From Janthinobacterium sp. PC23-8 (GTDB lineage: Bacteria > Pseudomonadota > Gammaproteobacteria > Burkholderiales > Burkholderiaceae_D): a stretch of 64,000 bases of DNA. The stretch lies in contig NZ_NJGY01000005.1 in the NCBI RefSeq assembly GCF_002250505.1, positions 87,157-151,156 of the forward strand, given 5' to 3'. A model generated the notes under the pieces. It searched no databases. It saw only the letters and a list, made by a program, of their open reading frames with translations, and was not told the origin of the DNA. Of this stretch, positions 26,927-48,336 are shown piece after piece (the stretch's first letter is position 1; each line of letters starts with the position of its first letter). A program made the translations under genes and the position numbers.

Positions 26927-26964
26927 CCGGTGCGCCGCGCCCTGGCGTCACCGGCCGGGGCGCG

Positions 26965-28013: not shown

Positions 28014-29216
<1,203 letters not shown>

Positions 29217-29325: not shown

Positions 29326-29364
29326 TAAGGGCTGGCATGGCGGGCGCCAGGAATTGCATGTCAA

Positions 29365-29381
29365 ATTCCACTGTGTGGAAT
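29365..29381. promoter_or_regulatory. IclR-type operator, copy 2 (tctC side)
   Basis: ATTCCA-CTGTG-TGGAAT, a perfect 6+6 palindrome. A plus-strand GATAAT at 29410-29415 would place it about 50 bases upstream of the tctC transcription start, fitting an activator site. Confidence 0.78.
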
Positions 29382-29496
29382 AGTGGGGGTGTGTCACCCG
29401 ATGTTAAGGGATAATCTGCATCACATGTGGCAGTTTGCGAAGACAAACGACCCAAGCCGGCCCCTGGCCGGACCCGACACCCATCAAGGAGACACC

Positions 29497-30507: not shown

Positions 30508-30527
30508 GCCGTCCCGGGAACAACACC

Positions 30528-30989
30528 ATGAAAATCATCAATCACAAGGACTTCTGGGCCGGGGTCCTGTTCCTGGCCTTCGGCGCCTTTTTCGCCGGCG
30601 AAGGGGCCAGCTACACCTTCGGCAGCGCCGCCCGCATGGGGCCGGGCTACTTCCCGACGATACTCGGCATGCTGCTGATGCTGTTCGGCCTCATCGTCGC
30701 CGTCGGCGGCATGCGCGCCGGCGCCACCCCCGAAACCGTCGAGCGCTTTTCCTGGCCCACGCTGGCGCTGATCCTCGGGCCGATCGTGCTGTTCGGCCTG
30801 CTGCTCGAACCGCTCGGTCTGATCCTGTCGCTGTTGATGCTCGTGGGCATTTCCAGTTACGCCAGCCACGAGTTCAGCTGGCGTGGCGCGCTGTACAACG
30901 CCGCCTTTTTGATCGGCCTGTGCCTGCTGGTGTTCATCTACGCGCTCGGCTTGCAATTTCAGCTGTGGCCATCGTTCGTTGGTGTTTAA
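30528..30989 (+). CDS. tctB: Tripartite tricarboxylate transporter small membrane subunit
   Basis: A 153-residue inner membrane protein with four hydrophobic segments: near 9-26 (FWAGVLFLAFGAFFAGEG), 45-62 (ILGMLLMLFGLIVAVGGM), 78-105 (LALILGPIVLFGLLLEPLGLILSLLML) and 120-145. The FWAGVLF and RMGPGYFP motifs are typical of TctB. It supports the large TctA permease. It starts 20 bases after tctC and ends 10 bases before tctA, so the three are one transcript. Confidence 0.92.
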   Translation: MKIINHKDFWAGVLFLAFGAFFAGEGASYTFGSAARMGPGYFPTILGMLLMLFGLIVAVGGMRAGATPETVERFSWPTLALILGPIVLFGLLLEPLGLILSLLMLVGISSYASHEFSWRGALYNAAFLIGLCLLVFIYALGLQFQLWPSFVGV

Positions 30990-30999
30990 GGGATAGACC

Positions 31000-32544: not shown

Positions 32545-32555
32545 TGAAGGGCATG

Positions 32556-32595
32556 GCCCGTCCGCGCCGTCGGTGCGGACGGGCTTTCTTTTTTT
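32556..32595 (+). terminator. Rho-independent terminator of tctCBA
   Basis: GCCCGTCCGC (32556-32565) pairs with GCGGACGGGC (32575-32584) around a 9-base loop and is followed by TTTCTTTTTTT. Confidence 0.93.
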
Positions 32596-32712
32596 CTGCT
32601 ATTAATTTGACTGTTGGTTCCTGGTAACAGAGTGCCCAATTGCACATACTTACCGGCTAAGATGATCGCCTTGCCGCGCGGCCGCGGCGTGTTTTCCCAT
32701 GGAAAGTCCAGC

Positions 32713-34329: not shown

Positions 34330-34714
34330 ACACCGCCGGCTCCTGTTCCAGGTTTTGCAGCGCGTGGCGGCGCGCGCCGTGGGTCTCGTAGGACTGCCCC
34401 GCGCTCAGCCGTCTCGATTCGCCCGTGTCCTCGAACGTCTCGGTCACCGTGCCGCGCAATACATACGACACCGACGGGCGGTCTGCATGGCTGTGCAAGG
34501 GCAGCAGGCCGCCGGGATCGATGGTGACCTGGCGCATGCGTAGGCTGCGCGCCGCGCCGCCGTCGAGCATGTTGGCTAACGGGATGCTCTCAAGCACTTT
34601 GCCGTTCACGCCGACCCGCTGCGCATCGGCGCTTTGCGCCGCCGCCGGGGCGCTCATGAGGGACAGGGCGCAGGCCAGGGCTGCGGCGGTTGCTGCAAGT
34701 TTATAATTTTTCAT
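34304..34714 (-). CDS. Secreted cupin-domain protein
   Basis: A 136-residue protein with a signal peptide of about 26 residues ending in PAAAQ, then a single cupin barrel: [34 protein letters not shown] carries the HxH metal-ligand motif, and [19 protein letters not shown] the second motif. It probably binds a metal ion in the periplasm. Its enzymatic role is unknown; small secreted cupins of this type are found near hydrolases. It is the last gene of the minus-strand group porin-GH3-hydrolase-cupin, 53 bases after the hydrolase. Confidence 0.82.
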
Positions 34715-34767
34715 GGTATTGAGTCGATGGTCGATGGAATGGGGGCCGGCAAATGGGCCGGCCGGCG

Positions 34768-35910
34768 TTACTTGACGTTGTCGGCCAGCCAGCGCTCGAG
34801 GCGTTCGGCGATCAGCAAGTTATTTTTCTCCAGCATCATCAAATGCCCGTTGCCGTGGATGCCTTGCTGTTCGAGGCGCCAGTGCGTGGCGGGCACGCCC
34901 GCTTGCCGCAGAAAGGCGGCGCTGCAATGGTCGTACGGGGCGTGGTACGACGCCTCGCCCGTCACCACCAGCACCGGCGTGGTTTGCAGATGCGTCAGTT
35001 TGCGCGCCGGGCTGCGCTGCAGCCAGCACTTGACCAGATCCTCGCCGTCGGCCGCGCTCTGCTGCTCGATCGCGATGTCGGCCGGATTTGTCACGGCCGG
35101 CGTGTAGGTCACCGCGATATTGGTCAGTCCCCAGGCCAGTTCGCGCACGCTCTGCGTGGCATTCTGAAACGGCGGCCCCGACGGTTCGATGGCGACGATG
35201 GCCTTGACCAGCGCCGGCCGCGCGTCGGCCACCGACCAGCCGAACAAGCCCGCCTGCGAATGCGTGAGCAGCACGGCCGGGCCGATCTTGTCGAGCAGCG
35301 CGACCATCGCTGTTTGCACCAGTTGCTCGCTCTTCGCGTTATCGGCTACCGACGGCACGATGGCGCGATAAAAATCGTCGAACACCGGATCGCCCCGGGT
35401 GGCCGGCGCTTCGCCGCCGCCCGGCCACTGGGTATGGCGCGCTGCCTGCGGCCAGGCCCGGTAGCGCTCGGAGGCCGTAAACAGCCGCTGCACCAGCGCC
35501 ACGTCGCTGGTGCGCAGTTTGTCGGCGCCGGGCAGCGCCGGCGAGCGACCGCGGCTGGGCTGGTCGATCAGGTAGACCACATAACCGTGGTCGACGAAAT
35601 AATCGGCCCATCCCTTGCGTCCGTCCGGCGTGGCCATCCAGTTGACGCCGGTTTGTCCCAGGCCGTGCAGGAACACCAGCGGGTACTTGCGGGTGATCTT
35701 GCGCGGTGCCCAGCCCTCCACATACATCTGGCCGGCCATCAGGTCCTTGCCGTCGGCGCTGACATATTCGCCGCCGACGTAGAACGCCGCATGACGCGCG
35801 ACGCTGGTTTCGATAAACTGCTCCGGGCCGAAATCGGCGCCGCTGGCGGCGCCGCCGACGCCCGCAAGGGTCAGTGCCAGGCCGAACGTCAGCGTGGTGA
35901 ATTTTTTCAT
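34768..35910 (-). CDS. Secreted alpha/beta hydrolase
   Basis: A 380-residue protein with a signal peptide of about 24 residues. It has an alpha/beta hydrolase core: oxyanion HG in LVFLHGLGQTGVNW, GWADYFVDHGYVVYLIDQPSRGRS, the nucleophile serine in VLLTHSQAGLFGW, and a late histidine in GIHGNGHLMMLE. It is probably a periplasmic or exported esterase or lipase-like enzyme; the bond cut is unknown. Located between the GH3 and cupin genes, it may release a carboxylic acid from an ester so that the Tct system can import it. That role is inference from context. Confidence 0.85.
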   Translation of the reverse strand: MKKFTTLTFGLALTLAGVGGAASGADFGPEQFIETSVARHAAFYVGGEYVSADGKDLMAGQMYVEGWAPRKITRKYPLVFLHGLGQTGVNWMATPDGRKGWADYFVDHGYVVYLIDQPSRGRSPALPGADKLRTSDVALVQRLFTASERYRAWPQAARHTQWPGGGEAPATRGDPVFDDFYRAIVPSVADNAKSEQLVQTAMVALLDKIGPAVLLTHSQAGLFGWSVADARPALVKAIVAIEPSGPPFQNATQSVRELAWGLTNIAVTYTPAVTNPADIAIEQQSAADGEDLVKCWLQRSPARKLTHLQTTPVLVVTGEASYHAPYDHCSAAFLRQAGVPATHWRLEQQGIHGNGHLMMLEKNNLLIAERLERWLADNVK

Positions 35911-35942
35911 GATTGCTCCTGTTGAATGTATGGTGGATCGCG

Positions 35943-37946
35943 TCAGTCGCGCAAGCCTTGCCCCATGCGGGTGGCGAGCTGGCCCTGTGGCGCCGGTACG
36001 GTGATCGACAGCGGCAAATCGTAGGGCAGCCGGCCTTCGAACGGCCGCTCCCCTGTCAGCATGTCGAACAGCGCGTCGGCCCCGAGGCCGAAATGGACGA
36101 CGATGGCCGCCGCTGCTGGGATCAAGGCGCTCAGGTCGGCCGGCCGGTCCATATACACCGACACCACCGTGGGCACTTTGGCGCTGATGCGCCTGAAGGC
36201 CTCGTAGCTGGCGCCGCCGGCCTTGAAAGCGGTGTCGCCTTCGCGGTAGCGCGAGCCGAAAAAGTGTTGCGGATGCAGCACTTCGCTGGGCGTGGCGATG
36301 GCCATGATGGCGAAGTCGGCCTGCTCGACGGTGTCGACCACGTTGAAACCGCGCCGCCGCGCGCTGGCCGGATCGATCTGGTACAGGAAGACCTTGCGTG
36401 CGGCCGGCGCCTTCAGCGGCAGCGTGTGGGCCTGGTTCTGCACCAGCACCGCCGAGCGGCGCTGGGCGTCGAGCGCCATCGCCTGGAAGCCGGCGTTGCC
36501 GACCACGCCGCTGGCGGCGTCGACATCGACGTAGGGGGCTTCAAACAGTCCCAGCTGGAATTTCTGCAGCATGATGCGGGTCACCGCGCGGTCCAGCGCG
36601 GCAAGCTGCAAGCGGCCGTTGCGCACCGCCGAGATAATATACTGCGGATCTTTGGCGCCGCCGAACTGGTCGACGCCGGCCTCGACCGCCTTGGCGAAGC
36701 GGCTTTCCTTCGACAGCTCCTCCACGCCCCACGGCATGGCGATGTCGGCCGGGTTGGGTTTCTGGCCGGCGGGTGCGCCGTCGCGGCAGCCGGCGAGGCA
36801 GTCGTCGGTGATCTGCCAGTCGCTCAGCACCACGCCGTCAAAACCGAAGCGCCCGCGCAGCACTTCGCCCAGCATCTGCCGGTTAAAACCGATGCCGACC
36901 TGCTCGATTGGCCCATCGGCGCCTTGCACCATCAGGCCCGGTCCCGGCTGGCCGTAGGTCGGCATGACCGCGCCCACCTGCGCGGCGAAGGCGCCGGTAA
37001 ACGGATAGATATGGTCTTCGATGGTATCGGTCCCGACCTGCATGTGGCGGCCGTAATGGTTGTGGGCGTCATAGCCTTGCGGCCCGGTCGCGCCGTAGCC
37101 GACCCAGTGCTTGACCACCGAGACGACGCTGTCGGCATGCAGCCCGGTCGCGCCGGACTGCATGCCGGTGACGTAGGCGTTGACCAGCCGGCGCGCCGTC
37201 TCGCGGTCGCCGCCAAAGGTGCCGTTGCTGCGGTGCCAGCGCGGATTGATGGCCAGGTCGGCCTGCGGCGACAGCGCCATGCGGATGCCGACGGCCAGGT
37301 ATTCCTGGCGTACGCTGTCGGCGAAGCGTCGCACCAGCTCGGCGTCGCCGGTGGCGGCCATGCCGGCCGGATCTGGCCATTGCGTGAAGCTGCCGGCGCC
37401 CACGCTGATCCCCTGCGAGGACTGGAACTGGTTGCGCGGGTCCGAGCTCAGCGTGACCGGAATGCCGAGCCGTCCCCGTTCGGCCGTTGCCTGCAGTTCA
37501 TTGGCTTGCCGCGCCATGGCGGCGACGTCGGTGTTGAGGCGGTTTAGGAACGCGGTGATGTGTTGGTCGAGCAGTAACTGGTCGATCCCCGGCCGCTCCC
37601 ATGCGGTGCCCGCGCCAGGGATGGTGCCGGAGGCGGTCGACGGCGGATTGGCATGCATCATGGCGCCGGCCTTTTCGTCGAGCGTCATGCGCGCCACCAG
37701 GTCGCGCGCGCGTTGCTGGGCACTGTTGCGCCAGTCCTCGTAGCCGTCGAGCACGCCGTTCTTGTTGTGGTCCTTGAAGCGCAGGCCGTCGACCGTCAGC
37801 ACGGCGATCGTGCGGGTTTGCAGCGGTGCTTGGGCCGACCGGCCGGCCGGGGTGGTGCACGCGCAAAGCGCGGCGATGGCAAGCGCCGGCAAAGCCAGGC
37901 GCGTGGTGTGCAAAATCGGATGGCGGGAGGGCATGGTGATGGTCAT
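35943..37946 (-). CDS. Glycoside hydrolase family 3 beta-glucosidase-like lipoprotein
   Basis: A 667-residue exported protein. The signal ends in an LCAC-like lipobox near residue 30. The GH3 N-terminal domain includes RMTLDEKAGAMMHA, GRLGIPVTLSSDPRN, VKHWVGYGATGPQGYDAHN and the nucleophile aspartate in FDGVVLSDWQ near 372. The C-terminal domain includes RSAVLVQNQAHTLPL and VPTVVSVYMDRPADLS. GH3 enzymes release terminal beta-linked glucose, xylose or similar from oligosaccharides or plant glycosides. ATG 37946 was taken; ATG 37934 is also possible. It follows the porin after 35 bases, and it is unusual to find it in a CoA-thioester catabolic regulon. Confidence 0.9.
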   Translation of the reverse strand: MTITMPSRHPILHTTRLALPALAIAALCACTTPAGRSAQAPLQTRTIAVLTVDGLRFKDHNKNGVLDGYEDWRNSAQQRARDLVARMTLDEKAGAMMHANPPSTASGTIPGAGTAWERPGIDQLLLDQHITAFLNRLNTDVAAMARQANELQATAERGRLGIPVTLSSDPRNQFQSSQGISVGAGSFTQWPDPAGMAATGDAELVRRFADSVRQEYLAVGIRMALSPQADLAINPRWHRSNGTFGGDRETARRLVNAYVTGMQSGATGLHADSVVSVVKHWVGYGATGPQGYDAHNHYGRHMQVGTDTIEDHIYPFTGAFAAQVGAVMPTYGQPGPGLMVQGADGPIEQVGIGFNRQMLGEVLRGRFGFDGVVLSDWQITDDCLAGCRDGAPAGQKPNPADIAMPWGVEELSKESRFAKAVEAGVDQFGGAKDPQYIISAVRNGRLQLAALDRAVTRIMLQKFQLGLFEAPYVDVDAASGVVGNAGFQAMALDAQRRSAVLVQNQAHTLPLKAPAARKVFLYQIDPASARRRGFNVVDTVEQADFAIMAIATPSEVLHPQHFFGSRYREGDTAFKAGGASYEAFRRISAKVPTVVSVYMDRPADLSALIPAAAAIVVHFGLGADALFDMLTGERPFEGRLPYDLPLSITVPAPQGQLATRMGQGLRD

Positions 37947-37981
37947 TGTCTGTCGAGATGGGGGAGGGGACGGCGGCGCGC

Positions 37982-39007
37982 TCAGAAGCGATGGCTGATG
38001 CCGGTTTCGGCGCCGCGCGAGCGCCCGCCCGCGCCCAGTCCCTGGGCGGTGGCGACGGCGAACCTGGCGTTGCCCTGGTTGCGCAGGTCGACGTAGGTGG
38101 CGTACAGCGTGGTGCGGCGCGATACATCGACGGTGTAGCCCACGGCCAGTTGGGTGGCGTCGTCGGCGCCAACCGGCACGCCGGCCAGCGTTCCTGTCGA
38201 GCCGATCCAGGTGTAGTTGGCGCGCAGTTTGCCTACCGGCAGCGGCACGACCGCGCCGATCTGGGTCACCAGTCGCGCCGCGCCCAGGTATTCGTTGCGC
38301 ACCGTCGAGGCGATCAGGGTGGCCATCGGCAAGCTGTACGAGGCCGACAGCGAGGTGCGCCGCAGCATGCCGGCGATGCCGTCGAAATTGCCGATCGCGG
38401 CGCTCAGGTTGAGCTGCTGGTCGGCATAGCCGATACGCGTGCCGCGATACTTTTGCGCCGGCTTGCCCTCGCCGGCGGCGACCGCGACATTGGCGTAAAA
38501 ACCGCCCAGGGTGTCGGGCGTGAAATAGCTGACGATATTGTCGGCGCGCGCCCACAGGCCGGTCGCCTCGATGCCGCTGCCGAACGCGGTCGAGTAGAAT
38601 TTCCCCTGGTCGGCCAGGCCGCTGACGCCGAACACGTCGAATTCGCCGAACGCGGTGTAGCTGGGCGTCAGATCGTGTCCCACGCGCAGTTCGCCGAACT
38701 TCCCGCCCAGGCTGACGGTCGAGCGGCGGTTCCACAGGCGCGCGCTGTTGCCGGTGCCATTGTTGTAGTTGACGGTGCCCTCCATCCATGCGCCTGCGTA
38801 GAGGCCGTCGCCCAACGCTTCCGTGGCGCGCACGCCGATCCGGCTCGCCGCATAGCCGCCGCTGCCGATGGTCCAGGTTCGGGCGCCGTCGTTGTCGAAC
38901 ACGCGCATGGCCGCGTCGGCCACGCCGAAGACGTTGACGCTCGATTGCGCCGTGGCCTGGCCGCAGGCGAGCGCCGCAGCGGCAATCAGAAAGGGGGACA
39001 ACTTCAT
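37982..39007 (-). CDS. Gram-negative porin, second copy
   Basis: A 341-residue outer membrane barrel with signal peptide cleavage near GQATAQ, mature start SSVNVFGVADAAMRVF, conserved SRIGVRATEALGDGLYAGAWMEG, and the C-terminal GISHRF ending in phenylalanine. GAGGAAA precedes the start. It differs clearly from the porin at 26965. It is the first gene of a four-gene group with GH3, hydrolase and cupin genes. Upstream, a minus-strand TTGACA (39055-39060) and an IclR-type operator (39078-39096) mark its promoter. Confidence 0.92.
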   Translation of the reverse strand: MKLSPFLIAAAALACGQATAQSSVNVFGVADAAMRVFDNDGARTWTIGSGGYAASRIGVRATEALGDGLYAGAWMEGTVNYNNGTGNSARLWNRRSTVSLGGKFGELRVGHDLTPSYTAFGEFDVFGVSGLADQGKFYSTAFGSGIEATGLWARADNIVSYFTPDTLGGFYANVAVAAGEGKPAQKYRGTRIGYADQQLNLSAAIGNFDGIAGMLRRTSLSASYSLPMATLIASTVRNEYLGAARLVTQIGAVVPLPVGKLRANYTWIGSTGTLAGVPVGADDATQLAVGYTVDVSRRTTLYATYVDLRNQGNARFAVATAQGLGAGGRSRGAETGISHRF

Positions 39008-39077
39008 GCCATTTTCCTCGGGTAATGTGGTGGAGATCCCGATTATTGTGGCAGTGTCAATTGATTGGCAATGATGT

Positions 39078-39096
39078 AATTCCATGCAGTGGAATT
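39078..39096. promoter_or_regulatory. IclR-type operator, copy 3 (porin-GH3 operon)
   Basis: AATTCCA-TGCAG-TGGAATT, a perfect 7+7 palindrome. It is centred about 50-60 bases upstream of the start site expected from the minus-strand TTGACA or AATAAT elements in front of the porin gene. Confidence 0.8.
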
Positions 39097-39130
39097 GGGC
39101 GCCATGGCGGCGCTGGCGCTGGCGCTGGCA

Positions 39131-39937
39131 CTAGCGGTGCCAGGCAGCCTGGATCGCGTCGCGCAGCGCGAGCAGGGGGCCGCGCAGCTCGTCGACCACC
39201 GAGTCGAACGGTTCGGCCGTGGTCACGCTCATGTTCAGGATGTGGATGGCGCAGTGGGGCATGGCGATCGGCGTCGCCAGGGCGACCACCTCGGGCTGCC
39301 AGGCGGCCGCGCAGTAGCCATGGCGCTGCACGCTGTCGATCGCCGCGAAGATCTCTCCTTCCATCGTCTCGCGGTCCTGCGCCGGCGACTTGGCCGAACC
39401 GCGCGCCTTGAGCCGCGCCAGAAAACGTTCGCGCGCCGGCACCGGCGCCACCGCCAGATAGGCTCTTCCCAGCGACGTCAGTTCGATCGGGATGCGCTGG
39501 CCCGAGACGATGGTGCGCAGCACCACCTTGCGGTTGTAGCGTATCGATTCGAGATACACCATCTCGTCGCCGTCCGCAATGGCCAGGCCGACGTTGACCC
39601 GGAACTTTTCCGAGGCCTCGCGCATCAGCGGTTTGGCCACCTGCAGCGCCTGATTGCTCAAGCGCATCGCCAGCGCCAGACTCAGTACCGCGACGCCGAG
39701 CCGGTAGCCGCGTCGCTGCGGATCGTATTCCAGCATGCCCTCGTGCACCAGCGTCTGCGTCAGGCGGCTCACGGTCGAGCGCGCCAGGCCGGTCTTGTCG
39801 GCGATATCGCCGTTCCCCATCACGTCCGATCCCGGGCGGAAGGCTTTGAGGATCGCCAGGCCCCGTTCGAGCGAGCGATTCTGCGATGGCCGCTCCTGTC
39901 GCGTGACCGCGTTGGCGGGCGTGGAAAGCTGTTTCAT
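39131..39937 (-). CDS. IclR family transcriptional regulator
   Basis: A 268-residue regulator. The N-terminal winged helix (about 20-85) begins QNRSLERGLAILKAF and has the recognition region KTGLARSTVSRLTQTLVHEG. The C-terminal effector domain (about 100-260) binds small acids in relatives such as PcaR, PcaU and PobR. It is read divergently from the acyl-CoA ligase operon, with one TTCCA-N5-TGGAA palindrome in between. Three more palindromes lie before other cluster promoters, so it is the probable regulator of the whole 27-47 kb cluster. The gene ends in a GGCGCT repeat tract that codes the alanine-rich tail. Confidence 0.92.
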   Translation of the reverse strand: MKQLSTPANAVTRQERPSQNRSLERGLAILKAFRPGSDVMGNGDIADKTGLARSTVSRLTQTLVHEGMLEYDPQRRGYRLGVAVLSLALAMRLSNQALQVAKPLMREASEKFRVNVGLAIADGDEMVYLESIRYNRKVVLRTIVSGQRIPIELTSLGRAYLAVAPVPARERFLARLKARGSAKSPAQDRETMEGEIFAAIDSVQRHGYCAAAWQPEVVALATPIAMPHCAIHILNMSVTTAEPFDSVVDELRGPLLALRDAIQAAWHR

Positions 39938-40037
39938 GGTGTGCTCCTGTTTGACCGGCCGATGCGATGGTGAGGAATTTCCCGGCCTGTTGTTGTTTGT
40001 TCTGACCCATGGTAGCGCATGAACGAGTGAGAAAGCA

Positions 40038-40054
40038 ATTCCATTAGATGGAAT
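40038..40054. promoter_or_regulatory. IclR-type operator, copy 4 (iclR / crotonase operon)
   Basis: ATTCCA-TTAGA-TGGAAT, a perfect 6+6 palindrome between divergent iclR and the crotonase gene. A plus-strand TACACT at 40084-40089 would place it about 50 bases upstream of the crotonase operon start. Confidence 0.78.
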
Positions 40055-40201
40055 CTGGCTGATGCGCTCGCAAGAGAATTCACTACACTGTATCCATCAC
40101 CGCACGCGCCGTTCCCCGATGACCGGCGCGCATGAAGAGAGCCGGAATCGGCCCGCCAGGAGATATCACGTGCCCCAATTATTTAATCGAAGGAACATCC
40201 A

Positions 40202-40996
40202 ATGACTGCTCTCACCCTGATCGACCTGCGGGTCGACGCCGGCATCGCGACCATTTATTTCAACCGCCCGGAAAAGCGCAACGCCATGAGCGACGCCATG
40301 CGCAGCGAGTTCATTGCCGCGCTGGAAACAGTTGCCGCCGACAAGGCCATCAAGGCGCTGGTCATCACCGGCAACGGCAAGGGCTTCTGCGCCGGCGGCG
40401 ACATCTCCGGCATGGAGCAACGCATGCAGGCGCCGGCCGGCGATATCGCCTACAACGGCTGGCACCGCCAGCAGCGCGTGCACCACACGCAAGGCCTGCT
40501 GTTTACCATGCCCAAGCCGGTGATTGCCGCCGTCAACGGCGCCGCCTCGGGCCTCGGCGCCGACACCGCGCTGGCGTGCGACTTCATCGTCGCCGCCGAC
40601 GACGCCAGCTTCACCTGGTCGTATATCAACCGCGGCATCATCCCCGATGGCGGCGGCATGTATTTCCTGCCGCGCCGCATCGGCCTGTCGAAAGCCAAGG
40701 ACCTGATTTTCTCGGGCCGCAAGGTCGCCGCGCCCGAAGCGCTGCAACTGGGCATCGCCGACCGCCTGGTGCCCGCCGATCAACTGGTGGCGTCCGCGCA
40801 AGCCTGGGCGGCGGAACTGGGCAAGGGATCGGGCACCGCGCTGGCGCTCGGTAAAACCATCCTCAACCAGAGCTTCGAGCTGTCGGCCACGCAGGTGTTT
40901 GCGATGGGTAGCCAGGCGCAAGGCATCTGCTACACCAGCACCGAACACCGCGCATCGGTGATGGCCTTCCTGGCCAAGGCCGCCGAGAAAAAATAA
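40202..40996 (+). CDS. Enoyl-CoA hydratase/isomerase (crotonase family)
   Basis: A 264-residue enzyme with the crotonase fold: RPEKRNAMSDAMRSEF, the oxyanion-hole motif ITGNGKGFCAGGDISGM, KPVIAAVNGAASGLGADTALACDF, and SYINRGIIPDGGGMYFLPR. The segment holding the catalytic acid reads IPDGGG, like PaaG-type isomerases, instead of the PE...GAGGTQ of classical hydratases, so double-bond isomerisation is as likely as hydration. It opens the operon with the NDP-forming ligase, fusion enzyme, MmgE/PrpD protein and binding protein, and is preceded by an IclR-type operator. Confidence 0.9.
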   Translation: MTALTLIDLRVDAGIATIYFNRPEKRNAMSDAMRSEFIAALETVAADKAIKALVITGNGKGFCAGGDISGMEQRMQAPAGDIAYNGWHRQQRVHHTQGLLFTMPKPVIAAVNGAASGLGADTALACDFIVAADDASFTWSYINRGIIPDGGGMYFLPRRIGLSKAKDLIFSGRKVAAPEALQLGIADRLVPADQLVASAQAWAAELGKGSGTALALGKTILNQSFELSATQVFAMGSQAQGICYTSTEHRASVMAFLAKAAEKK

Positions 40997-41056
40997 GCGA
41001 AAACAGGCAAGCGCGCACCGCGCGCAGCCTTTCAAAGATCAACGACGAGACCAGAC

Positions 41057-43144
41057 ATGAACGCCATTTCCCTTCTTTTCAAACCGCGCAGCGTCGCCAT
41101 CATCGGCGCCTCCGGCGACGCCAGCAAGACCGCCGGACGTCCCATCGCCTACCTGCGCAAGCACGGCTACGCGGGCGAAATCTATCCCGTCAACCCGCGC
41201 GTCGACACCATTGACGGCCTGCGCTGCTACCCCGACATCGCCTCTCTGCCGGCCGCGCCAGACGTCGCCATGGTCTGCGTCGGCGCCGAGCGCGCCATCG
41301 GCGCGGTGCGCGAACTGGCCGCCAGGGGCTGCGCCGCCGCCATCGTGCTGGCCAGCGGCTTCGGCGAGACCGGCGAGGCGGGCCTGCGCCGCCAGCAGGA
41401 ACTGATCGAAGCGGCGGGCAGCATGCGCCTGCTCGGACCGAACACCATCGGCCTGGTCAACCTGACCGACGACATTCCGCTGTCGGCCAGCGGCGCGCTG
41501 GAAATGGATCGCTTCCCGGTTGGTGCGGTGGGACTGGTGTCGCAAAGCGGCGGCATCCTCGGCGCGCTGATGTCGCGCGCGGCCGCGCGCGGCATCGGCA
41601 TGTCCAAGCTGGTCTCGACCAGCAACGAGGTCGACCTGGAACTGGCCGACTTCATCGACTACCTGGTCGACGACGAGGCCACCCGCGTCATCGCGCTGTA
41701 TGTCGAAACCGTGCGCAACCCCGAGAAATTCCGCGCCGCCTGCCTGCGCGCCGCGCAAGCGGGCAAGCCGGTGGTGGCGTTCAAGATCGGCCGCTCCGAA
41801 GCCGGCGCCCGCGCCGCCGTGTCGCATACCGGCGCCATGGCCGGCGCCGACCGCATGTACGACGCCCTGTTCAGGCAGGTCGGCGTGATCCGCGCGCAGA
41901 CCTTCGCCGACTTCCTCGACATTCCTGCCGCGCTGACCAACGGCCGCGTCTTGCGCGGCAAGCGCGTCGCCATTCTTACTTCCACCGGCGGCGCCGGCAC
42001 CCTGATTTCCGATGCGCTGGGCGTGACCGGCTTCGACGCGCCGGCGCCCGACGAAGCCACCGCCGCACGCCTGCGCGCGCTGCAGACGGGCGAGGAGGCG
42101 GCGCTGGACCGCAATCCGATCGATGTCACGCTGGCCGGCCTCAAGCCGGACCTGCTGCGCGGCGCCATCAACGCCTTGCTCGACAGCCCGACCTACGACG
42201 CGCTGATCATCATCGTCGGCTCGTCGGCGCTGGCCATGCCGGAACTGATGGCCGGTGCGATCCAGGACTGCCTGGCCAACAGCGACAAGCCGATCCTGGC
42301 CTACGTCAGCCCGCACGCGCCCGAGCTGATGGCGCTGTTCAACCAGCGCGGCGTGCCGGCCTATACCGCGCCGGAGAGTTGCGCCGCCGCGCTGGGCGCG
42401 ATGCTGCAACTGGCGCGCGCGCCGGCGCAGATCGACAGCGGCGAGCCGTGCAGCCCGGTCGCCATCGACGACTTTGGCTCCGGTTCGCTCGACGAGGCAC
42501 AGGCCAAGGCCCTGTTTGCCCGCTTCGGCGTGCCGTCGGTGCGCGAACAGATTGTCACCACGCCGGCCGAGGCGCAGGCCGCCGCCGCCACGTTCGGCGA
42601 CAAGGTGGTGCTCAAGATCCTGTCGTCCGAGATCACCCATAAAAGCGATGTCGGCGGCGTGGCCGTGGCCGTGCCGGTGGCGCAGGTCGGCGAACGCCTG
42701 GCCCTGATGATCGAGGACGTGACGGCCAGGGCCGGCGTCACGCCGAGCCGCTTCCTGGTGCAGGAGATGGTGTCGGGCGGCGCCGAATTCATCCTCGGCG
42801 TGCACCGCGACGCGCTGGGTACTGCCGTGCTGCTGGGCATGGGCGGCGTGATGGCCGAGCTGTTCAAGGACACCACCATGCGCCTGCTGCCGCCGTCCGG
42901 CGGCTTGAGCCGCGCGGACGCGCTGGAGATGGCGCGCGAACTGAAAACCTGGCCGCTGCTCGACGGCTTCCGCGGCCGCCCGAAGGCCGATGTCAATGCG
43001 CTGGTGGACGCCATCGTCGCGTTCTCGCGCATGGCCTCGCAACTCGGTGAACGCCTGGTGGAAGCGGAAATCAACCCGGTCTTCGTGCTCGAGGTCGGCC
43101 GTGGCGTGCGCGCCGCCGACGGCGTGCTGGTGCTGGGCGCGTGA
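41057..43144 (+). CDS. NDP-forming acyl-CoA synthetase
   Basis: A 695-residue single-chain CoA ligase of the acetate-CoA ligase (ADP-forming) superfamily. It has an N-terminal CoA-binding Rossmann domain (SVAIIGASGDASKTAGRPI). The ligase domain has the phospho-histidine in AAVSHTGAMAGADRMY near residue 257. A C-terminal ATP-grasp domain (about 475-695) includes KVVLKILSSEITHKSDVGGV. It joins a carboxylic acid to CoA using ATP. Relatives act on acetate, pimelate, aryl acids or ferulate, so the substrate is open. It overlaps the next gene by one base (TGATG) and should supply the CoA ester for the beta-oxidation enzymes encoded around it. Confidence 0.92.
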   Translation: MNAISLLFKPRSVAIIGASGDASKTAGRPIAYLRKHGYAGEIYPVNPRVDTIDGLRCYPDIASLPAAPDVAMVCVGAERAIGAVRELAARGCAAAIVLASGFGETGEAGLRRQQELIEAAGSMRLLGPNTIGLVNLTDDIPLSASGALEMDRFPVGAVGLVSQSGGILGALMSRAAARGIGMSKLVSTSNEVDLELADFIDYLVDDEATRVIALYVETVRNPEKFRAACLRAAQAGKPVVAFKIGRSEAGARAAVSHTGAMAGADRMYDALFRQVGVIRAQTFADFLDIPAALTNGRVLRGKRVAILTSTGGAGTLISDALGVTGFDAPAPDEATAARLRALQTGEEAALDRNPIDVTLAGLKPDLLRGAINALLDSPTYDALIIIVGSSALAMPELMAGAIQDCLANSDKPILAYVSPHAPELMALFNQRGVPAYTAPESCAAALGAMLQLARAPAQIDSGEPCSPVAIDDFGSGSLDEAQAKALFARFGVPSVREQIVTTPAEAQAAAATFGDKVVLKILSSEITHKSDVGGVAVAVPVAQVGERLALMIEDVTARAGVTPSRFLVQEMVSGGAEFILGVHRDALGTAVLLGMGGVMAELFKDTTMRLLPPSGGLSRADALEMARELKTWPLLDGFRGRPKADVNALVDAIVAFSRMASQLGERLVEAEINPVFVLEVGRGVRAADGVLVLGA

Positions 43145-45213
43145 TGGGAGCCCCATTGAGCACAGCACAGGTTCGGCTCGAGCGCGATGGCGATATCGCT
43201 GTCATCGTGATCGACAACCCGCCGATCAATGCCGGCTCGGCCGCCGTGCGCGCGGGCCTGCTGGCCGCCATCGACACCGTGGCACACGATGGCACCCTGC
43301 GGGCGGCGGTGATCATCGGCGCCGGCACCACCTTTATCGCCGGCTCCGACCTGAAGGAATTCGGCCAGCCCTTGCAGGACCCGCAACTGCCGGCCATCAT
43401 CAAAGCCATTGAGGGTTGCGGCAAACCGGTGGTGGCGGCGCTGCATGGCGCCGCGCTAGGCGGCGGCTACGAGCTGGCGCTGGGCTGCGACTACCGTATC
43501 GCCGCGCCGGGCACGGTGGTGGGGCTGCCGGAAGTGACTCTGGGCATCATCCCCGGCGCCGGCGGCACCCAGCGCCTGCCGCGCCTGGTCGGCCTGCCCA
43601 AGGCCATCGACCTTGTTTGCAGCGGTGAGCGGGTGGCGGCAAGCGAAGCGCTGGCGCTGGGCATGCTCGACGCCATCGCCGCCGGCGACCTGCGCCAGGA
43701 GGCGCTCGCCTGCGCGCGCCGGCTGATCGGCACCAGGTCGCTGCTGCGCGAGCGCACCGCACCGGCATGCACCGCCGAAGAGCTGGCCGCAGCCTCGGCA
43801 GCCGCCTTGCGCGCCGGCCGCGAGCGTCCCGCCGTGCGGGCCGCGATCGAGGCCGTCGGCCAGGCGGCGCTGGCGGACATGGAGCCAGGCCTCGCCGCCG
43901 AGCGCGCCATGTTCCAGCAATTGCGCCTGTCGGTCGAGGCGCGGGCGCTGCGCCACCTGTTCTTTGCCGAACGGGCCTCGGCCAGGCATCCGGCGCTGGC
44001 CGGCGTGGCGCCGCGCCCGGTCGAGCTGATCGCGGTGCTGGGCGCCGGCACCATGGGCGCCGGCATCGCGATTGCCGCGCTCGATGCCGGCTACCGGGTG
44101 TTGCTGGTCGAGCAGGACCCGGCCGCGCTCGAACGCGGCGGCAACAATATCGCCGACCTGTACGCCGACCGCCTCAAGCGTGGCCGCTTGAGCGCCGAAG
44201 CCGCCGCCCAGCGGCTGGGCAGCCTGGAGCGCAGCCTCGACTGGAGTCGCCTGGCCGAGGCCGACCTGGTGATCGAAGCCGTGTTCGAGGACCTGGCCGT
44301 CAAGCAGCAGGTGTTTGCGCGCCTGGACGCCGTCATGCGCCCCGGCGCCATCCTGGCAAGCAATACCTCCTACCTCGACCTCGACGCGATTGCCGGCGCC
44401 ACCTCGCGCCCGGGCGATGTGCTAGGGCTGCATTTCTTCAGCCCCGCCAACGTCATGCGCCTGCTGGAGGTAGTGCGCGGCGCGGCCACCGCGCCCGAGG
44501 TGCTGGCCACCGGCCTGGCCGTCGGCCGGCGCCTGCGCAAGCTGCCCATCCTGACCGGCAACGCCTTCGGCTTTATCGGCAACCGCGTGTACGCCGCCTA
44601 CCGGCGCCAGTGCGAATTTTTGATCGAGGAGGGCGCATATCCGGAACAGGTGGACGCCGCGCTCGAAGCCTTCGGCTTTGCCATGGGGCCGTTCGCGGTG
44701 GCCGACATGTCCGGCCTCGACATTGCCTGGCGCATGCGCCAGAGCCAGGCCGCCACGCGCGATCCGCGCGCCCGCTATGTCGACATTGCCGACCGCCTGT
44801 GCGAAGCCGGACGCCTGGGACGCAAGACCGGCGCCGGCTACTATCGCTACCAGGCCGGCGCCAGGGGCGGCCAGCCCGATCCCCTGGTGCGCGAGGTGAT
44901 CGAGCAGTCGCGCGCCGCCAACGGCATCGCCGCCCGGCCGCTCGACGATGCCGAAATCGTGCGCCGCGCGCTGCTGGCCATGGTCAACGAAGCGGCGCTG
45001 CTGCTGGCCGAAGGCGTGGCCGGCCACGCGGCCGATGTCGACCTGGTGCTGATCAACGGCTACGGCTTTCCGCGCTGGGAGGGCGGCCCGGTGTTCTGGG
45101 CGCGCGAACGCGGCCGCGCGGCGCTGGAGCACGATCTCGACTGGCTGGCGGCAGTGAGCGCAGCCGGCTTCGTGCGCGGCGACGCCGCCTGCCTGCTGGC
45201 GAAGGAGGACTGA
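43144..45213 (+). CDS. Fused enoyl-CoA hydratase / 3-hydroxyacyl-CoA dehydrogenase
   Basis: A 689-residue bifunctional beta-oxidation enzyme. Residues 1-190 form a crotonase domain with KPVVAALHGAALGGGYELAL and GLPEVTLGIIPGAGGTQRLPR. Residues about 290-470 form the NAD-binding domain (LIAVLGAGTMGAGIAIAAL) with the catalytic histidine in LGLHFFSPANVMRL, followed by two C-terminal dehydrogenase domains (GNAFGFIGNRVYAAYRRQ; GYGFPRWEGGPVFWA). Overall order resembles peroxisomal-type multifunctional enzymes, not FadB with FadA. It hydrates and then oxidises an enoyl-CoA to the 3-oxoacyl-CoA that the cluster thiolase can cleave. ATG 43144 overlaps the ligase stop by one base. Confidence 0.93.
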   Translation: MGAPLSTAQVRLERDGDIAVIVIDNPPINAGSAAVRAGLLAAIDTVAHDGTLRAAVIIGAGTTFIAGSDLKEFGQPLQDPQLPAIIKAIEGCGKPVVAALHGAALGGGYELALGCDYRIAAPGTVVGLPEVTLGIIPGAGGTQRLPRLVGLPKAIDLVCSGERVAASEALALGMLDAIAAGDLRQEALACARRLIGTRSLLRERTAPACTAEELAAASAAALRAGRERPAVRAAIEAVGQAALADMEPGLAAERAMFQQLRLSVEARALRHLFFAERASARHPALAGVAPRPVELIAVLGAGTMGAGIAIAALDAGYRVLLVEQDPAALERGGNNIADLYADRLKRGRLSAEAAAQRLGSLERSLDWSRLAEADLVIEAVFEDLAVKQQVFARLDAVMRPGAILASNTSYLDLDAIAGATSRPGDVLGLHFFSPANVMRLLEVVRGAATAPEVLATGLAVGRRLRKLPILTGNAFGFIGNRVYAAYRRQCEFLIEEGAYPEQVDAALEAFGFAMGPFAVADMSGLDIAWRMRQSQAATRDPRARYVDIADRLCEAGRLGRKTGAGYYRYQAGARGGQPDPLVREVIEQSRAANGIAARPLDDAEIVRRALLAMVNEAALLLAEGVAGHAADVDLVLINGYGFPRWEGGPVFWARERGRAALEHDLDWLAAVSAAGFVRGDAACLLAKED

Positions 45214-45215
45214 GC

Positions 45216-46544
45216 ATGCATGCAACCGAGGTATTGGCGCGCTTCGGCGCCGCCTTCCACGCGCGCAGCGTGGCGCCGGAGGTGATCCATGCCGCCAAGC
45301 GGGCGGTGGTCGACTGGTACGCGTCGGTGTTTCCCGGCTACGCAACGCCGCCGGTGCAGCTGTTGATGGCCACCCTGGCCGACGACCTCGATCGGGGCAA
45401 GTGCCGGCTGGCCACTAGCCAGGCGGCCACGCCGCGCACGGCGGCGCTGATCAACGGCGCGGCGGCGCACGCCGCCGAGGTCGATGACAGTTTTCGCGGC
45501 GCCATGTACCACCCGGGCGCGGCGACCATCGCCGCCGCCCTCGCTGCAGGGCAGGAGGTCGGCGCCGATGGCGCCGAGTTCCTGCGCGCGGTGGTGGTCG
45601 GTTACGAGATCTCGACCCGCATCGGCGTGGTGCTGGGACGCTCGCACTACCGCTACTGGCACAACACGGGCACCGTCGGCGTGTTCGGCGCGGCCGCTGC
45701 CGCAGCGTACCTGTACCGGCTCGACGCCACTGCCTTTGCCCATGCGCTGGCGACGGCGGCGACGTTTTCCGCCGGACTGCAGCAGGCTTTTCGCATGGAT
45801 TCGATGTCCAAGCCGCTGCATCCGGGGCGGGCCGCAGAAGGCGGCCTGCTGGCCGCCGCTCTTGCGGCCAGGGGCGCGACCGGCTCGCTGGACGTGCTCG
45901 ACGGTGAAAACGGCCTGGGACGCGCCATGAGCGACGGCCCGAACTGGTCGCGCATCGGCGCCACCCTGGGCACGGTGTTTCATATCGAGGGACTGACGTT
46001 CAAGAACCATATCGGCTGCGGCCACGTGTTTCCATCCATCGACGGCGTGCTGGCGCTGAGGGAACAATACGGTTTGCGGCCGGACGACATCGAAAGCGTG
46101 AGCGTGGGCACCTACCAGGCCGCCCTCGATATCGCTTGTTACGGCGTACCGGCCAGCGCCAACGAGGCGCGCTTCAGCATGCCCTTCATGCTGGCCACGG
46201 CGCTGGTGCACGGCAGCGTGCGCATGCGCGCCTACGAGGCCGCAGGGCTGGCCGACCCCGGCGTGCATGCGCTGATGCCGCGCATCGCCACGGCGGTCGA
46301 TGCGGAGCTCGACGCGCGCTTTCCGGCGCAGCGCGCAGCGCGCATCGAGATCGTGTGCCGCGACGGCCTGCGCCTGGCGCACTTCCAGCCCAACCGCAAG
46401 GGCGACCCCGAAGATCCGCTCGACGACGCCGACCTCGGCGACAAGCTGCTCGAGCTGGCGACGCCGGTGATCGGCGGCGCGCGCGCGGCAGCGCTGCTGG
46501 CGCGCTTGTGGCAGGCCGACAGCGCTGGTGCGCTCGACTGGTAG
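45216..46544 (+). CDS. MmgE/PrpD family protein
   Basis: A 442-residue protein with the family pattern: AKRAVVDWYASVFPG, ALINGAAAHAAEVDDSF (conserved HxxEVDD-like motif), HPGAATIAAALA, FRMDSMSKPLHPGRAAEGGLLAA, and LTFKNHIGCGHVFPSIDG. Known members are 2-methylcitrate dehydratase and cis-aconitate decarboxylase, both working on tri- or dicarboxylates. Here it may dehydrate, decarboxylate or isomerise an intermediate of the pathway; no prpB or prpC is present, so a methylcitrate role is unlikely. Its ATG is two bases after the fusion enzyme's stop codon. Confidence 0.9.
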   Translation: MHATEVLARFGAAFHARSVAPEVIHAAKRAVVDWYASVFPGYATPPVQLLMATLADDLDRGKCRLATSQAATPRTAALINGAAAHAAEVDDSFRGAMYHPGAATIAAALAAGQEVGADGAEFLRAVVVGYEISTRIGVVLGRSHYRYWHNTGTVGVFGAAAAAAYLYRLDATAFAHALATAATFSAGLQQAFRMDSMSKPLHPGRAAEGGLLAAALAARGATGSLDVLDGENGLGRAMSDGPNWSRIGATLGTVFHIEGLTFKNHIGCGHVFPSIDGVLALREQYGLRPDDIESVSVGTYQAALDIACYGVPASANEARFSMPFMLATALVHGSVRMRAYEAAGLADPGVHALMPRIATAVDAELDARFPAQRAARIEIVCRDGLRLAHFQPNRKGDPEDPLDDADLGDKLLELATPVIGGARAAALLARLWQADSAGALDW

Positions 46545-46614
46545 CAACTCGCGGCAACACCGTCCCGCGCGCCGCGTGGGACGTATTTCAATATAAAAAC
46601 TCAGGAGATCAACC

Positions 46615-47418
46615 ATGCTGTCCCGCAAACTCAACAAAATCGTGCTCGCCGTGTGCGGCGCGTGCGCCTTCGCCAGCGCCAGCGCGGCCCGCGCCGACGA
46701 ACTCAAGGTGCTGACCACCGGCATCATGAAAGGCTCGTTTGCGCACATCGCCGCGCAATTCGAACGCGAAACCGGCCACACGCTGAGCATGTCCTGGGGC
46801 CCGTCGTCGGGCAATTCGCCGGAGGCCAGCCAGGTGCGCATCAAGAGCGGCGAGCAGGTTGACGTGCTGATCATGGTCGACAAGGGGATGGACGAGCTGG
46901 TACGCGGCGGCTATTTCGTGCCCCTGAACCGCCGCGACGTGGCCATCTCGAAGATCGGCGTGGCCGTCAAGACGGGCCACCCGCTGCCCGATATCAGCAG
47001 CGTCGACGCCGTGCGCAAAACCATGCTCGCGGCCAGCTCGATCGCCTATTCGGAAGGCGCCAGCGGCAGCTATATTGCCAACGTCATGCTCAAGAAGCTG
47101 GGCATCGCCGACCAGGTCGCGTCCAAAAGCAAGGTCATCCTTGGCAGGAAATTCGTCGGCGAGGCGCTCGCCAGCGGCGAGGCCGAACTGGGTCTGCAGC
47201 AGCTCAGCGAGCTGCGCCTGGAACCCGGGGTGAGCGTGGTCGGGCCGCTGCCCGACGAACTGCAAAAGGCCAGCCTGGTCACCGCCGCCGTGTCGTCGAA
47301 GGCCAAAAACATCCCGGCGGCGCAGCAGTTCGTCGCTTTCCTGGCCACCCCCTACGCCACCGACGCGATCCGCAACAGCGGCCTGGAACTGCCTGCGCAC
47401 AACCCGGCCATAAAGTAG
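46615..47418 (+). CDS. Periplasmic solute-binding protein (ModA-like fold)
   Basis: A 267-residue protein with a signal peptide cleaved near ASAARA. The mature part begins DELKVLTTGIMKGSFAHIAAQFERETGH, has SGEQVDVLIMVDKGMDELVRGGYF, then SIAYSEGASGSYIANVMLKKLGI, and ends LATPYATDAIRNSGLE. This is the ModA/AccA-like extracellular binding fold. No permease or ATPase gene is adjacent, so it may work as a free sensor, feed a remote transporter, or bind a pathway metabolite. It closes the operon that begins with the crotonase gene; the 70-base gap before it contains a plausible ribosome binding site (AGGAG). Confidence 0.85.
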   Translation: MLSRKLNKIVLAVCGACAFASASAARADELKVLTTGIMKGSFAHIAAQFERETGHTLSMSWGPSSGNSPEASQVRIKSGEQVDVLIMVDKGMDELVRGGYFVPLNRRDVAISKIGVAVKTGHPLPDISSVDAVRKTMLAASSIAYSEGASGSYIANVMLKKLGIADQVASKSKVILGRKFVGEALASGEAELGLQQLSELRLEPGVSVVGPLPDELQKASLVTAAVSSKAKNIPAAQQFVAFLATPYATDAIRNSGLELPAHNPAIK

Positions 47419-47451
47419 CCAGAGCGCTGCGGCGATTGCGGCCGCGCCGGT

Positions 47452-47495
47452 GCAAGCCGGTAGCAAGCCGGTAGCCAGCAGGTAGCCAGCAGCTG
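47452..47495 (+). repeat. Four 11-bp tandem repeats
   Basis: GCAAGCCGGTA twice without change, then GCCAGCAGGTA and GCCAGCAGCTG. The array follows the binding-protein stop codon in a 246-base intergenic region in which no gene was found. Confidence 0.85.
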
Positions 47496-47664
47496 AGGCG
47501 CATGCCAATGCCGGACCGCGTCCTCATGGCACCCGCCAGGCCACAGCCTGGCGGCCAGGAGTCATTCCTGAATCCGGCCGCGACAGGTGCCAAACACAAG
47601 CGTGCATGCCCTCCCCCGGAAGTCTCCTTATATTCATGCTTTCGCCAGCATACGACACTTCAAC

Positions 47665-48336
47665 ATGCCCACTTTGCAATCGCGCTACCTCGCCACCCTC
47701 CTGGGCCTGGCCACCGGTGAGGCCATCGGCATGACAGTGCGCGCCGCGCTCGACAGGTTCGCCGACGCGGGTAATCCCTACAGTGGCGACACGTCCCCGC
47801 GCACGGCCGGCAACGGTTCGCTGATGCGCCTGGCGCCCGTGGTGCTGTTCGCCTGTCCCGATGTCAAAGAAGCGATCCAGCTGGCCGCCGACAGTTCCCG
47901 TACCACGCACGGCGCACCGGAAGCGCTTGAAAGCTGCCAGTTATTCGCAGCTCTGCTGTGCGGCGCGCTGGCGGGAACCAGGAAAGAAGACCTGCTGGCC
48001 AGCATCACGTTCCGGCCAACGGAGCCGAAGCTGAGCGAACTGGCTGGCGGCAGCTTTGTCGCCAAGCCGGAACAGGACATTCGCGGCACCGGCTACTGCG
48101 TCGATTCGCTGGAAGCATCGCTGTGGTGCTTTTTCAATACCGACAGTTTTGAAGCGGCCGTGCTGCGCGCCGCCAATCTGGGCGACGACGCTGATACCAC
48201 GGCCGCGATCACCGGCCAGATCGCCGGCGCCTGGTATGGTGTGGAAGCGATTCCGCAAGCCTGGCTGGAGCCATTGGCGATGCGCGGCGATATCGAGCAA
48301 ATGGCGGTCAAATTGCTGGAGCGGCAGAGAGCGTAG
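47665..48336 (+). pseudogene. ADP-ribosylglycohydrolase with an internal deletion
   Basis: A 223-residue protein of the DraG-type family, which removes ADP-ribose from proteins. The start LATLLGLATGEAIG and the later GNPYSGDTSPRTAGNGSLMRLAPV and NLGDDADTTAAITGQIAGAWYG blocks are good. Between GEAIG and MTVRAAL, however, roughly 80 residues normal for the family are missing. That segment holds the first metal-binding TDDT motif and the region up to the FDIGNT-like block. The reading frame is kept. The join sits at an ATCGGC that would occur in both parental segments, suggesting deletion between short repeats. It is probably inactive as a hydrolase, or an unusual short variant. The upstream ribosome binding site is poor. 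Confidence 0.72.

Follow-up and report, generated by a model that had tools for sequence, protein, structure and literature searches.

What does an MmgE/PrpD-family protein do at the end of a row of beta-oxidation genes, and how far does the unit around it reach? The question is raised by a 64,000-nucleotide stretch of DNA from Janthinobacterium sp. PC23-8 (NCBI RefSeq assembly GCF_002250505.1, contig NZ_NJGY01000005.1, positions 87,157-151,156 of the forward strand; genome size 6.39 Mb), hereafter called the window, whose positions serve as coordinates throughout. An earlier reading made from the letters alone, termed here the sequence-only reading, had proposed a beta-oxidation route that starts with a nucleoside diphosphate (NDP)-forming coenzyme A (CoA) ligase and includes the MmgE/PrpD enzyme. 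Gene content, a shared palindrome, island borders, a conserved neighbourhood and active-site residues can be read from the DNA, and by these marks the locus is a genuine catabolic unit, coherent as well as mobile: an island built around an uncharacterised MmgE/PrpD clade. With a probability of roughly 0.6, we propose that it encodes a route under IclR control in which MmgE would epimerise or isomerise a 1,4-dicarboxylate unit of the free acid, the ligase would then attach CoA, and beta-oxidation would end in succinyl-CoA and acetyl-CoA.

The four-gene operon and its MmgE/PrpD protein

Four genes form the core of the locus:

40202..40996, plus strand: crotonase, candidate PaaG-like delta3-delta2 isomerase (PF00378, 3.5e-57)
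41057..43144, plus strand: NDP-forming acyl-CoA ligase, fused alpha-beta (CoA_binding_2, Succ_CoA_lig, ATP-grasp_5)
43144..45213, plus strand: enoyl-CoA hydratase/3-hydroxyacyl-CoA dehydrogenase fusion (ECH-3HCDH; domain matches)
45216..46544, plus strand: MmgE/PrpD-family protein with an epimerase-type active site (PF03972, 2.4e-60; PF19305, 1.6e-39)

The crotonase and ligase genes stand 60 bases apart, the ligase and fusion genes overlap by one base (TGATG), and the MmgE gene follows the fusion gene after 2 bases; by this spacing the four genes are one tight operon, 40202-46544. Domain matches recovered the enzyme types that the sequence-only reading had named for this range, with the exception of the thiolase.

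MmgE/PrpD homologues occur in 19.2% of species and are mostly uncharacterised (PMC12290011; this and the other papers cited are represented here by excerpts). Genome-wide, the island MmgE is the only gene that matches the MmgE/PrpD N-terminal family; to this extent the earlier statement that methylcitrate genes are absent stands, prpB, prpC and acnD not having been searched for. Against the 2-methylcitrate dehydratase equivalogs the protein scored 34.5 bits (cut-off 950) and 21.5 bits (cut-off 575), and its identity as PrpD (methylcitrate dehydratase) was rejected on these scores. Its best solved relative by sequence is iminodisuccinate epimerase (E 1.2e-62). The predicted structure, with a mean predicted local distance difference test score (pLDDT) of 91.2, also fits this epimerase best (Z 52.4, 1.8 Å over 436 residues), compared to Z 48.1 for human cis-aconitate decarboxylase and Z 36-40 for PrpD entries.

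In the itaconate cluster, the MmgE/PrpD protein is an (S)-(R)-methylsuccinate isomerase that acts on the free acid rather than the CoA ester; His102 and Tyr148 are its proposed bases, and His88, Glu91, His152, Lys202 and Lys266 surround the substrate (P. aeruginosa numbering; PMC12290011). The island MmgE has counterparts of all seven residues, H86, E89, H100, Y146, H150, K200 and K264 (alignment numbering; protein numbering is lower by 1), and these are invariant columns in MmgE alignments of 14 and of 34 sequences. The putative bases are thus His99 and Tyr145, numbered from the start Met, as in iminodisuccinate epimerase (PMC7347537). The column of His277 of human cis-aconitate decarboxylase, a residue whose importance is quoted in PMC7347537, holds Cys269 in MmgE and likewise Cys in the epimerase, and a cis-aconitate decarboxylase identity was rejected on this ground. 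Two more distant MmgE/PrpD proteins (L226 and L227, 26% identical) do not have the two bases. At three positions that lie beside catalytic residues in sequence, the clade has R or K, N and H, compared to N, F and F in a C. metallidurans homologue (L221) that is 35% identical; the latter was picked by its neighbour genes alone, a FAS1-like dehydratase and an acyl-CoA dehydrogenase, so that its methylsuccinate-type name is a guess. The three differences might reflect an extra carboxylate in the substrate, among other possibilities. Overall, the residues found in MmgE are those of a two-base epimerase; the protein is not PrpD, and it probably acts on a di- or tricarboxylate, in agreement with the unusual role that had been suggested for it.

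The crotonase resembles PaaG-type delta3-delta2 isomerases, of which we consider it a candidate member. Its nearest structures are PaaG-type chains (2ej5, 3hrx and 6sl9-6slb), and the isomerase-like acid motif noted earlier is present as IPDGGG, with PDxG likewise in the aligned PaaG-type chains. Asp and Tyr replace both hydratase Glu residues, whereas the crotonase domain of the fusion protein has both glutamates (positions by eye in both cases). E. coli PaaG retains one catalytic glutamate (PMC4498308), compared to none seen in the island crotonase. The ligase combines CoA-binding, succinyl-CoA-ligase-like and ATP-grasp domains, the architecture of an NDP-forming acyl-CoA synthetase, and falls below the models named for acetate (401.4/1200 bits), 4-hydroxybutyrate (329.5/1300) and 3-hydroxypropionate (317.5/1300).

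The acquired island and its shared palindrome

The four genes are linked as the sequence-only reading had it, yet the real unit is larger:

26918..47668 (about 20.7 kb), no strand: acquired catabolic island, delimited by a homology gap against a sister genome, GC content and ligase distribution

Homology to the sister genome G363 (L198) ends at 26917 and resumes at 47669, two points that lie 159 bp apart there. Only this one genome showed the empty site; the left-hand homology also stops at 26916-26917 in L200, L201 and L202, and at 25849 in L199. The GC fraction is 0.678 within the island and 0.615 and 0.626 in the flanks. Among 40 genomes of the genus, an orthologue of the window-type ligase was found in the source genome only, the best homologues of the others being 36% identical; MmgE, at E up to 1e-60, is absent from the 12 other genomes of the genus listed by the search. 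By its borders, composition and distribution, the block is a horizontally acquired island. Its 15 recognised genes, namely two porin genes, tctCBA, and genes for a chemoreceptor, a GH3 glycosidase, an alpha/beta hydrolase, an IclR regulator, the four operon proteins, a thiolase and a solute-binding protein, could all serve the uptake and breakdown of one compound.

The thiolase and the regulator stand outside the operon, together with four candidate operators:

28014..29216, minus strand: 3-oxoadipyl-CoA thiolase, PcaF type (TIGR02430, 703.8 bits versus cut-off 597)
39131..39937, minus strand: IclR-family regulator (HTH_IclR, 2.7e-18; IclR_C, 4.2e-11)
40038..40054, no strand: IclR-type operator candidate, in the gap from IclR to crotonase gene, perfect ATTCCAT-N3-ATGGAAT
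39079..39095, no strand: IclR-type operator candidate, upstream of porin B
29310..29326, no strand: IclR-type operator candidate, thiolase/TctC intergenic region
29365..29381, no strand: IclR-type operator candidate, thiolase/TctC intergenic region

The palindrome ATTCCAY-N3-RTGGAAT was first noticed upstream of the crotonase gene. An exact search of the 6.39-Mb genome for its core, TTCCAY-N3-RTGGAA, gives six sites. Four fall within three island promoter regions (IclR/crotonase, porin B and thiolase/TctC) of 655 bases combined; the other two (L166 and L167) apparently lie inside genes of unrelated regions, as judged by simple open reading frame calling, with the strand of L166 uncertain. We also compared 46 related loci whose IclR gene is divergently oriented, in which L042/L067 and L043/L073 are apparently the same genomes twice, all four being without the palindrome. 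At up to 2 mismatches it occurs in the IclR-crotonase interval of 23 of these loci, with 25 matches in 57 kb of intervals versus 4 in 872 kb outside. The four outside matches stand near other TctC genes, between an IclR gene and TctC in L086 and L097, and just before TctC in L087 and L096.

We infer that the operon, the porin-GH3-hydrolase group and the thiolase/TctCBA pair share one apparent IclR-type switch. The co-regulation on which the sequence-only reading had staked its case is thus matched, at the level of sequence only, by one palindrome in three promoter regions. That reading had also included a 3-oxoadipyl-CoA-like thiolase; its identity is confirmed, but not its placement, as the gene lies on the minus strand outside 40202-46544, 11 kb from the operon and adjoining the TctCBA genes. 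Because of the shared palindrome, we count it as part of the unit despite this distance.

Several features surround the island. Left of it lie a MesX gene (24828-25919; PF08908, 2e-188), a stretch matched in 33 of 40 genus genomes, and a LysR gene (26048-26926) matched in 4 of the 5 genomes fetched. An ADP-ribosylglycohydrolase gene at the right border (47669-48336) is missing an internal stretch of about 230 bases relative to L198 (3428-3656 there), and an IS3-family transposase gene (52429-53418; 266 bits versus cut-off 160) stands about 5 kb to the right.

Conserved neighbourhood in relatives

Related loci were collected with MmgE as the seed, which gave 337 stretches; the counts below come from the 80 best loci (L062-L141). 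Homologues were scored at 50% identity or more within the stretch available for each locus; several contigs are short, and the counts include related species that are not independent. MmgE itself is present in 80 of 80 by construction, since the loci were chosen by MmgE similarity. Two arrangements prevail: type A, with the window-type ligase and the crotonase but no acyl-CoA dehydrogenase (46/80 loci), and type B, with a second ligase type and an acyl-CoA dehydrogenase but no crotonase (18/80). Two loci (L081 and L104) have both sets, one has the first ligase without the crotonase, and two have the second ligase without the dehydrogenase, so that an NDP ligase of either type is found in 69 of the 80. 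Neither type occurs in the other 11, five of which have an acyl-CoA dehydrogenase without a ligase in reach and six of which lack crotonase and acyl-CoA dehydrogenase as well; among the 11, L071, L079, L110, L126 and L137 are without any scored partner gene.

Of the 67 loci in which just one ligase type occurs, 64 (46 + 18) pair it with the matching partner enzyme. Crotonase and dehydrogenase loci are nearly exclusive of each other, which suggests that the isomerase-like crotonase and the acyl-CoA dehydrogenase behave as alternatives. The 49 loci with the first ligase type have the crotonase in 48, the IclR regulator in 41, the Bug receptor in 46, the fusion in 16 and the thiolase in 17. In many genera, MmgE homologues lie amid clusters akin to this one, and the gene order, for which the sequence-only reading had called for a synteny search, is conserved across these genera. 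In L104 (1800-20500) both cluster types are adjacent and MmgE is encoded twice (64% and 59%), the fusion-thiolase pair only once; a single pair is as expected if the type A and type B routes share their lower steps.

The remaining island genes are as follows:

26965..27969, minus strand: porin A, downstream of the thiolase gene and on the same strand (PF13609, 3.5e-58)
29497..30507, plus strand: TctC/Bug periplasmic receptor (PF03401, 4.5e-80)
30528..30989, plus strand: TctB membrane subunit (PF07331, 5e-18)
31000..32544, plus strand: TctA membrane subunit (PF01970, 3.7e-162)
32713..34329, plus strand: methyl-accepting chemotaxis protein (PF00015, 7.5e-54), linked to the pathway by position only
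34768..35910, minus strand: alpha/beta hydrolase (PF12697, 1.9e-08)
35943..37946, minus strand: GH3 glycosidase (PF00933, 5e-37), with a lipoprotein-like N-terminus (LCAC, by eye)
37982..39007, minus strand: porin B, which heads the porin-GH3-hydrolase group (PF13609, 3.7e-43)
46615..47418, plus strand: orphan ModA-like solute-binding protein (PF13531, 1.9e-37)

TctA, TctB and TctC domains stand side by side, as in a tripartite tricarboxylate transporter. The receptor matches 11 structure chains, mostly named Bug, TctC or terephthalate-binding proteins (best Bug27, 1.5e-75), and has homologues in 46 of the 80 loci (best 69%); IclR homologues occur in 40 of the 80. TctA homologues of 67% identity adjoin the same operon in Denitromonas (L065) and Thauera (L070), and the former also has a chemotaxis protein of 29% identity. 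The alpha/beta hydrolase has a 54% homologue between the ligase and MmgE genes of Variovorax L127, while Hydrogenophaga L124 has the sole close GH3 homologue (61%), adjoining the operon, with a 55% porin B homologue beside it; GH3 and porin B thus recur jointly. At E<=1e-80, GH3 was found in 3 of 300 genomes of the order, the source genome included, and no plasmid record matched at 60% identity. The source genome has a second GH3 gene (C5:593460-595361) that is 50% identical to the island one. Porin A has no homologue at the threshold in the 80 loci. Homologues of the ModA-like protein (67% and 64%) lie directly 3' of the thiolase gene in two loci (L064 and L088); with 51.3 bits in TIGR01256 versus a cut-off of 62.5, we claim no molybdate role for it. 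In five related loci an alpha/beta hydrolase resembles, by eye, the 3-oxoadipate enol-lactonase PcaD (e.g. L127 6888-7715, L121 18502-19326 and L065 1934-2728), a hint that the substrate may have a lactone form.

Proposed pathway, rival explanations and known systems

From these genes we infer regulation, transport, step order, each reaction and the substrate class. A porin and TctCBA would import a carboxylic acid, which the GH3 glycosidase and the alpha/beta hydrolase may release from a plant conjugate. MmgE would act first, on the free acid, with His99 and Tyr145 as the two bases that shift a proton on the carbon alpha to a carboxylate of a 1,4-dicarboxylate unit, and the outcome would be an epimerisation or a double-bond shift. 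The NDP-forming ligase would then make the CoA thioester, the PaaG-like crotonase would carry out the delta3-to-delta2 double-bond shift, hydration and oxidation would fall to the fusion protein, and the PcaF-type thiolase would yield acetyl-CoA and succinyl-CoA. That the island has no acyl-CoA dehydrogenase suggests a substrate that is already unsaturated. The earlier outline of a beta-oxidation-type route from an NDP ligase to a 3-oxoadipyl-CoA-type thiolase is in this way supported at the sequence level.

As to the substrate, the whole enzyme set would be accounted for by C7 tricarboxylates with the butane-1,2,4-tricarboxylate skeleton, triglochinic acid from plants being one example; this fit was made post hoc. 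The skeleton fits because it holds both the 1,4-dicarboxylate unit common to MmgE enzymes and a longer arm that is open to beta-oxidation as a CoA ester. Triglochinic acid is (2E)-but-2-ene-1,2,4-tricarboxylic acid, a hydrolysis product of the plant glucoside triglochinin (PMC9063553), for which plant sources are given in PMC7866531. MmgE would work at the succinate end of the free acid and the ligase would place CoA on the longer arm. The PaaG-like isomerase of type A would then act on but-2-ene-1,2,4-tricarboxyl-CoA and the acyl-CoA dehydrogenase of type B on the saturated acid, both meeting at the same delta2-enoyl-CoA; hydration and oxidation would give 4-carboxy-3-oxoadipyl-CoA, a beta-keto acid that would lose CO2 to form 3-oxoadipyl-CoA, the thiolase substrate. 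That types A and B are two such entries to one C7 pathway, with triglochinin as the natural source here because the GH3 and hydrolase genes share the island, is a tentative proposal that we consider unlikely to hold in full.

A number of observations weigh against the proposed IclR-controlled route and its single switch. The fusion has homologues in only 17 of the 80 loci and the thiolase (best 79%) likewise in 17, so that the lower steps are often supplied from elsewhere; GH3, porin B and the alpha/beta hydrolase recur in one locus each. A second thiolase, 78% identical, is encoded elsewhere in the source genome, in view of which the island thiolase may be a dedicated one. The crotonase falls below the PaaG equivalog TIGR02280 (164.6 versus 345.15 bits). 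As for the palindrome, ATTCCAT-N3-ATGGAAT has four matches at up to 3 mismatches in the window, and at least four also in 5 of 100 window shuffles; the count alone is therefore weak, and the case rests on exactness and position. With up to 1 mismatch the core has 54 genome sites versus 12 for a reversed control, the six exact ones alone having been inspected. At up to 2 mismatches it was not found in 23 of the 46 IclR-crotonase intervals, nor anywhere outside that interval in Hydrogenophaga L124, which has GH3 and porin B.

Among other explanations, a linear C6 route survives best, in which hex-3-enedioate or a conjugate is handled as in the lower phenylacetate pathway and MmgE is an accessory acting on another compound. 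The PaaG-like crotonase, the hydratase-dehydrogenase and the PcaF-type thiolase do match the conversion of 3,4-dehydroadipyl-CoA via 2,3-dehydroadipyl-CoA to 3-oxoadipyl-CoA (PMC4498308). However, hex-3-enedioate and adipate are without the 1,4-dicarboxylate unit common to characterised MmgE/PrpD enzymes (PMC12290011), and a ligase nonetheless accompanies MmgE in 69 of 80 loci, which leaves this route doubtful.

A methylsuccinate or alkylsuccinate route would have MmgE epimerise a simple 2-alkylsuccinate, whose CoA ester is then split to succinyl-CoA and an acyl-CoA, on the model of benzylsuccinate beta-oxidation, which splits its CoA ester in this manner. The seven residues common to MmgE and methylsuccinate isomerase speak for it, as do the acyl-CoA dehydrogenases near ligase and MmgE in type B sister clusters. 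The methylsuccinate isomerase gene itself adjoins a methylsuccinyl-CoA dehydrogenase gene (PMC12290011), and an acyl-CoA dehydrogenase gene is present in type B relatives but not among the annotated island genes. Moreover, the 15 annotated island genes include no itaconyl-CoA hydratase or citramalyl-CoA lyase, the thiolase is of PcaF type, and MmgE is only 35% identical to the likely methylsuccinate-cluster homologue, with the three differing positions beside catalytic residues. We judge this route improbable.

It is also conceivable that the genes are a loose, ordinary beta-oxidation set with MmgE as a bystander; several further Bug receptor genes do stand around unrelated genes in the same loci, and 6 of the 80 MmgE loci have no ligase, crotonase or acyl-CoA dehydrogenase, but the coincidence of ligase type and partner enzyme in 64 of 67 single-type loci, the shared palindrome and the island borders make this very improbable. 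Finally, that MmgE is a methylcitrate dehydratase or cis-aconitate decarboxylase, as its family name and fold might imply, is scarcely credible given its scores, the Cys in the His277 column that it shares with iminodisuccinate epimerase, and its possession of both bases that L226 and L227 lack.

This MmgE clade recurs in a similar neighbourhood, and both its type of reaction and the order of steps are predicted, so that testing a small set of substrates could reveal the function of a group present in many Betaproteobacteria. Genetic work should be eased by the mobile layout with its single regulator, and since type A has an isomerase where type B has a dehydrogenase, the chemistry can be put to a sharp test.

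No account of the gene set or of butane-1,2,4-tricarboxylate degradation was found by titles and abstract beginnings, a weak test as the papers listed never name MmgE in the form searched and the slash spelling MmgE/PrpD may escape it, and no paper combining MmgE, PrpD and enoyl-CoA hydratase turned up. The excerpts of a dicarboxylate study by random-barcode transposon sequencing (PMC12543098) do not mention PrpD. Pathways for thiodipropionate and mercaptosuccinate were considered and set aside, PrpD being unmentioned in the excerpts of PMC6370202 and both PrpD and MmgE in those of PMC5373536, as judged by wording and not by gene comparison. The parts are thus known enzyme kinds in a combination without description in the limited literature searched.

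Four known systems come close. The methylsuccinate branch of the itaconate cluster (PA0881, C. necator Q0K3E6; PMC12290011) likewise has an MmgE/PrpD protein acting on the free acid before CoA activation, as predicted here, with the same seven active-site residues and with the acyl-CoA dehydrogenase neighbour seen in type B sister clusters; the island differs in having an NDP ligase instead of a CoA transferase and no citramalyl-CoA lyase, adds a PcaF-type thiolase and a hydratase-dehydrogenase, and its MmgE is about 35% identical to that of the likely member L221. Iminodisuccinate epimerase (2hp0, 2hp3) is the best match in sequence and structure and has the same two bases, but is 28-29% identical and, as far as known, has a different substrate. 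The lower phenylacetate pathway, PaaG-PaaF-PaaH-PaaJ, shares the delta3-delta2 isomerase type, the hydratase, the dehydrogenase and the 3-oxoadipyl-CoA thiolase, PaaG converting 3,4- to 2,3-dehydroadipyl-CoA en route to 3-oxoadipyl-CoA (PMC4498308), whereas the island is entered via an NDP ligase on a free acid, has no ring epoxidase gene, adds MmgE and has hydratase and dehydrogenase fused. A plasmid cluster of Acinetobacter sp. LoGeW2-3 (L037) brings together MmgE (44-45%), NDP ligase, fused dehydrogenase, pcaF and a DcaP porin, but where the island has the PaaG-like crotonase it has acyl-CoA dehydrogenases.

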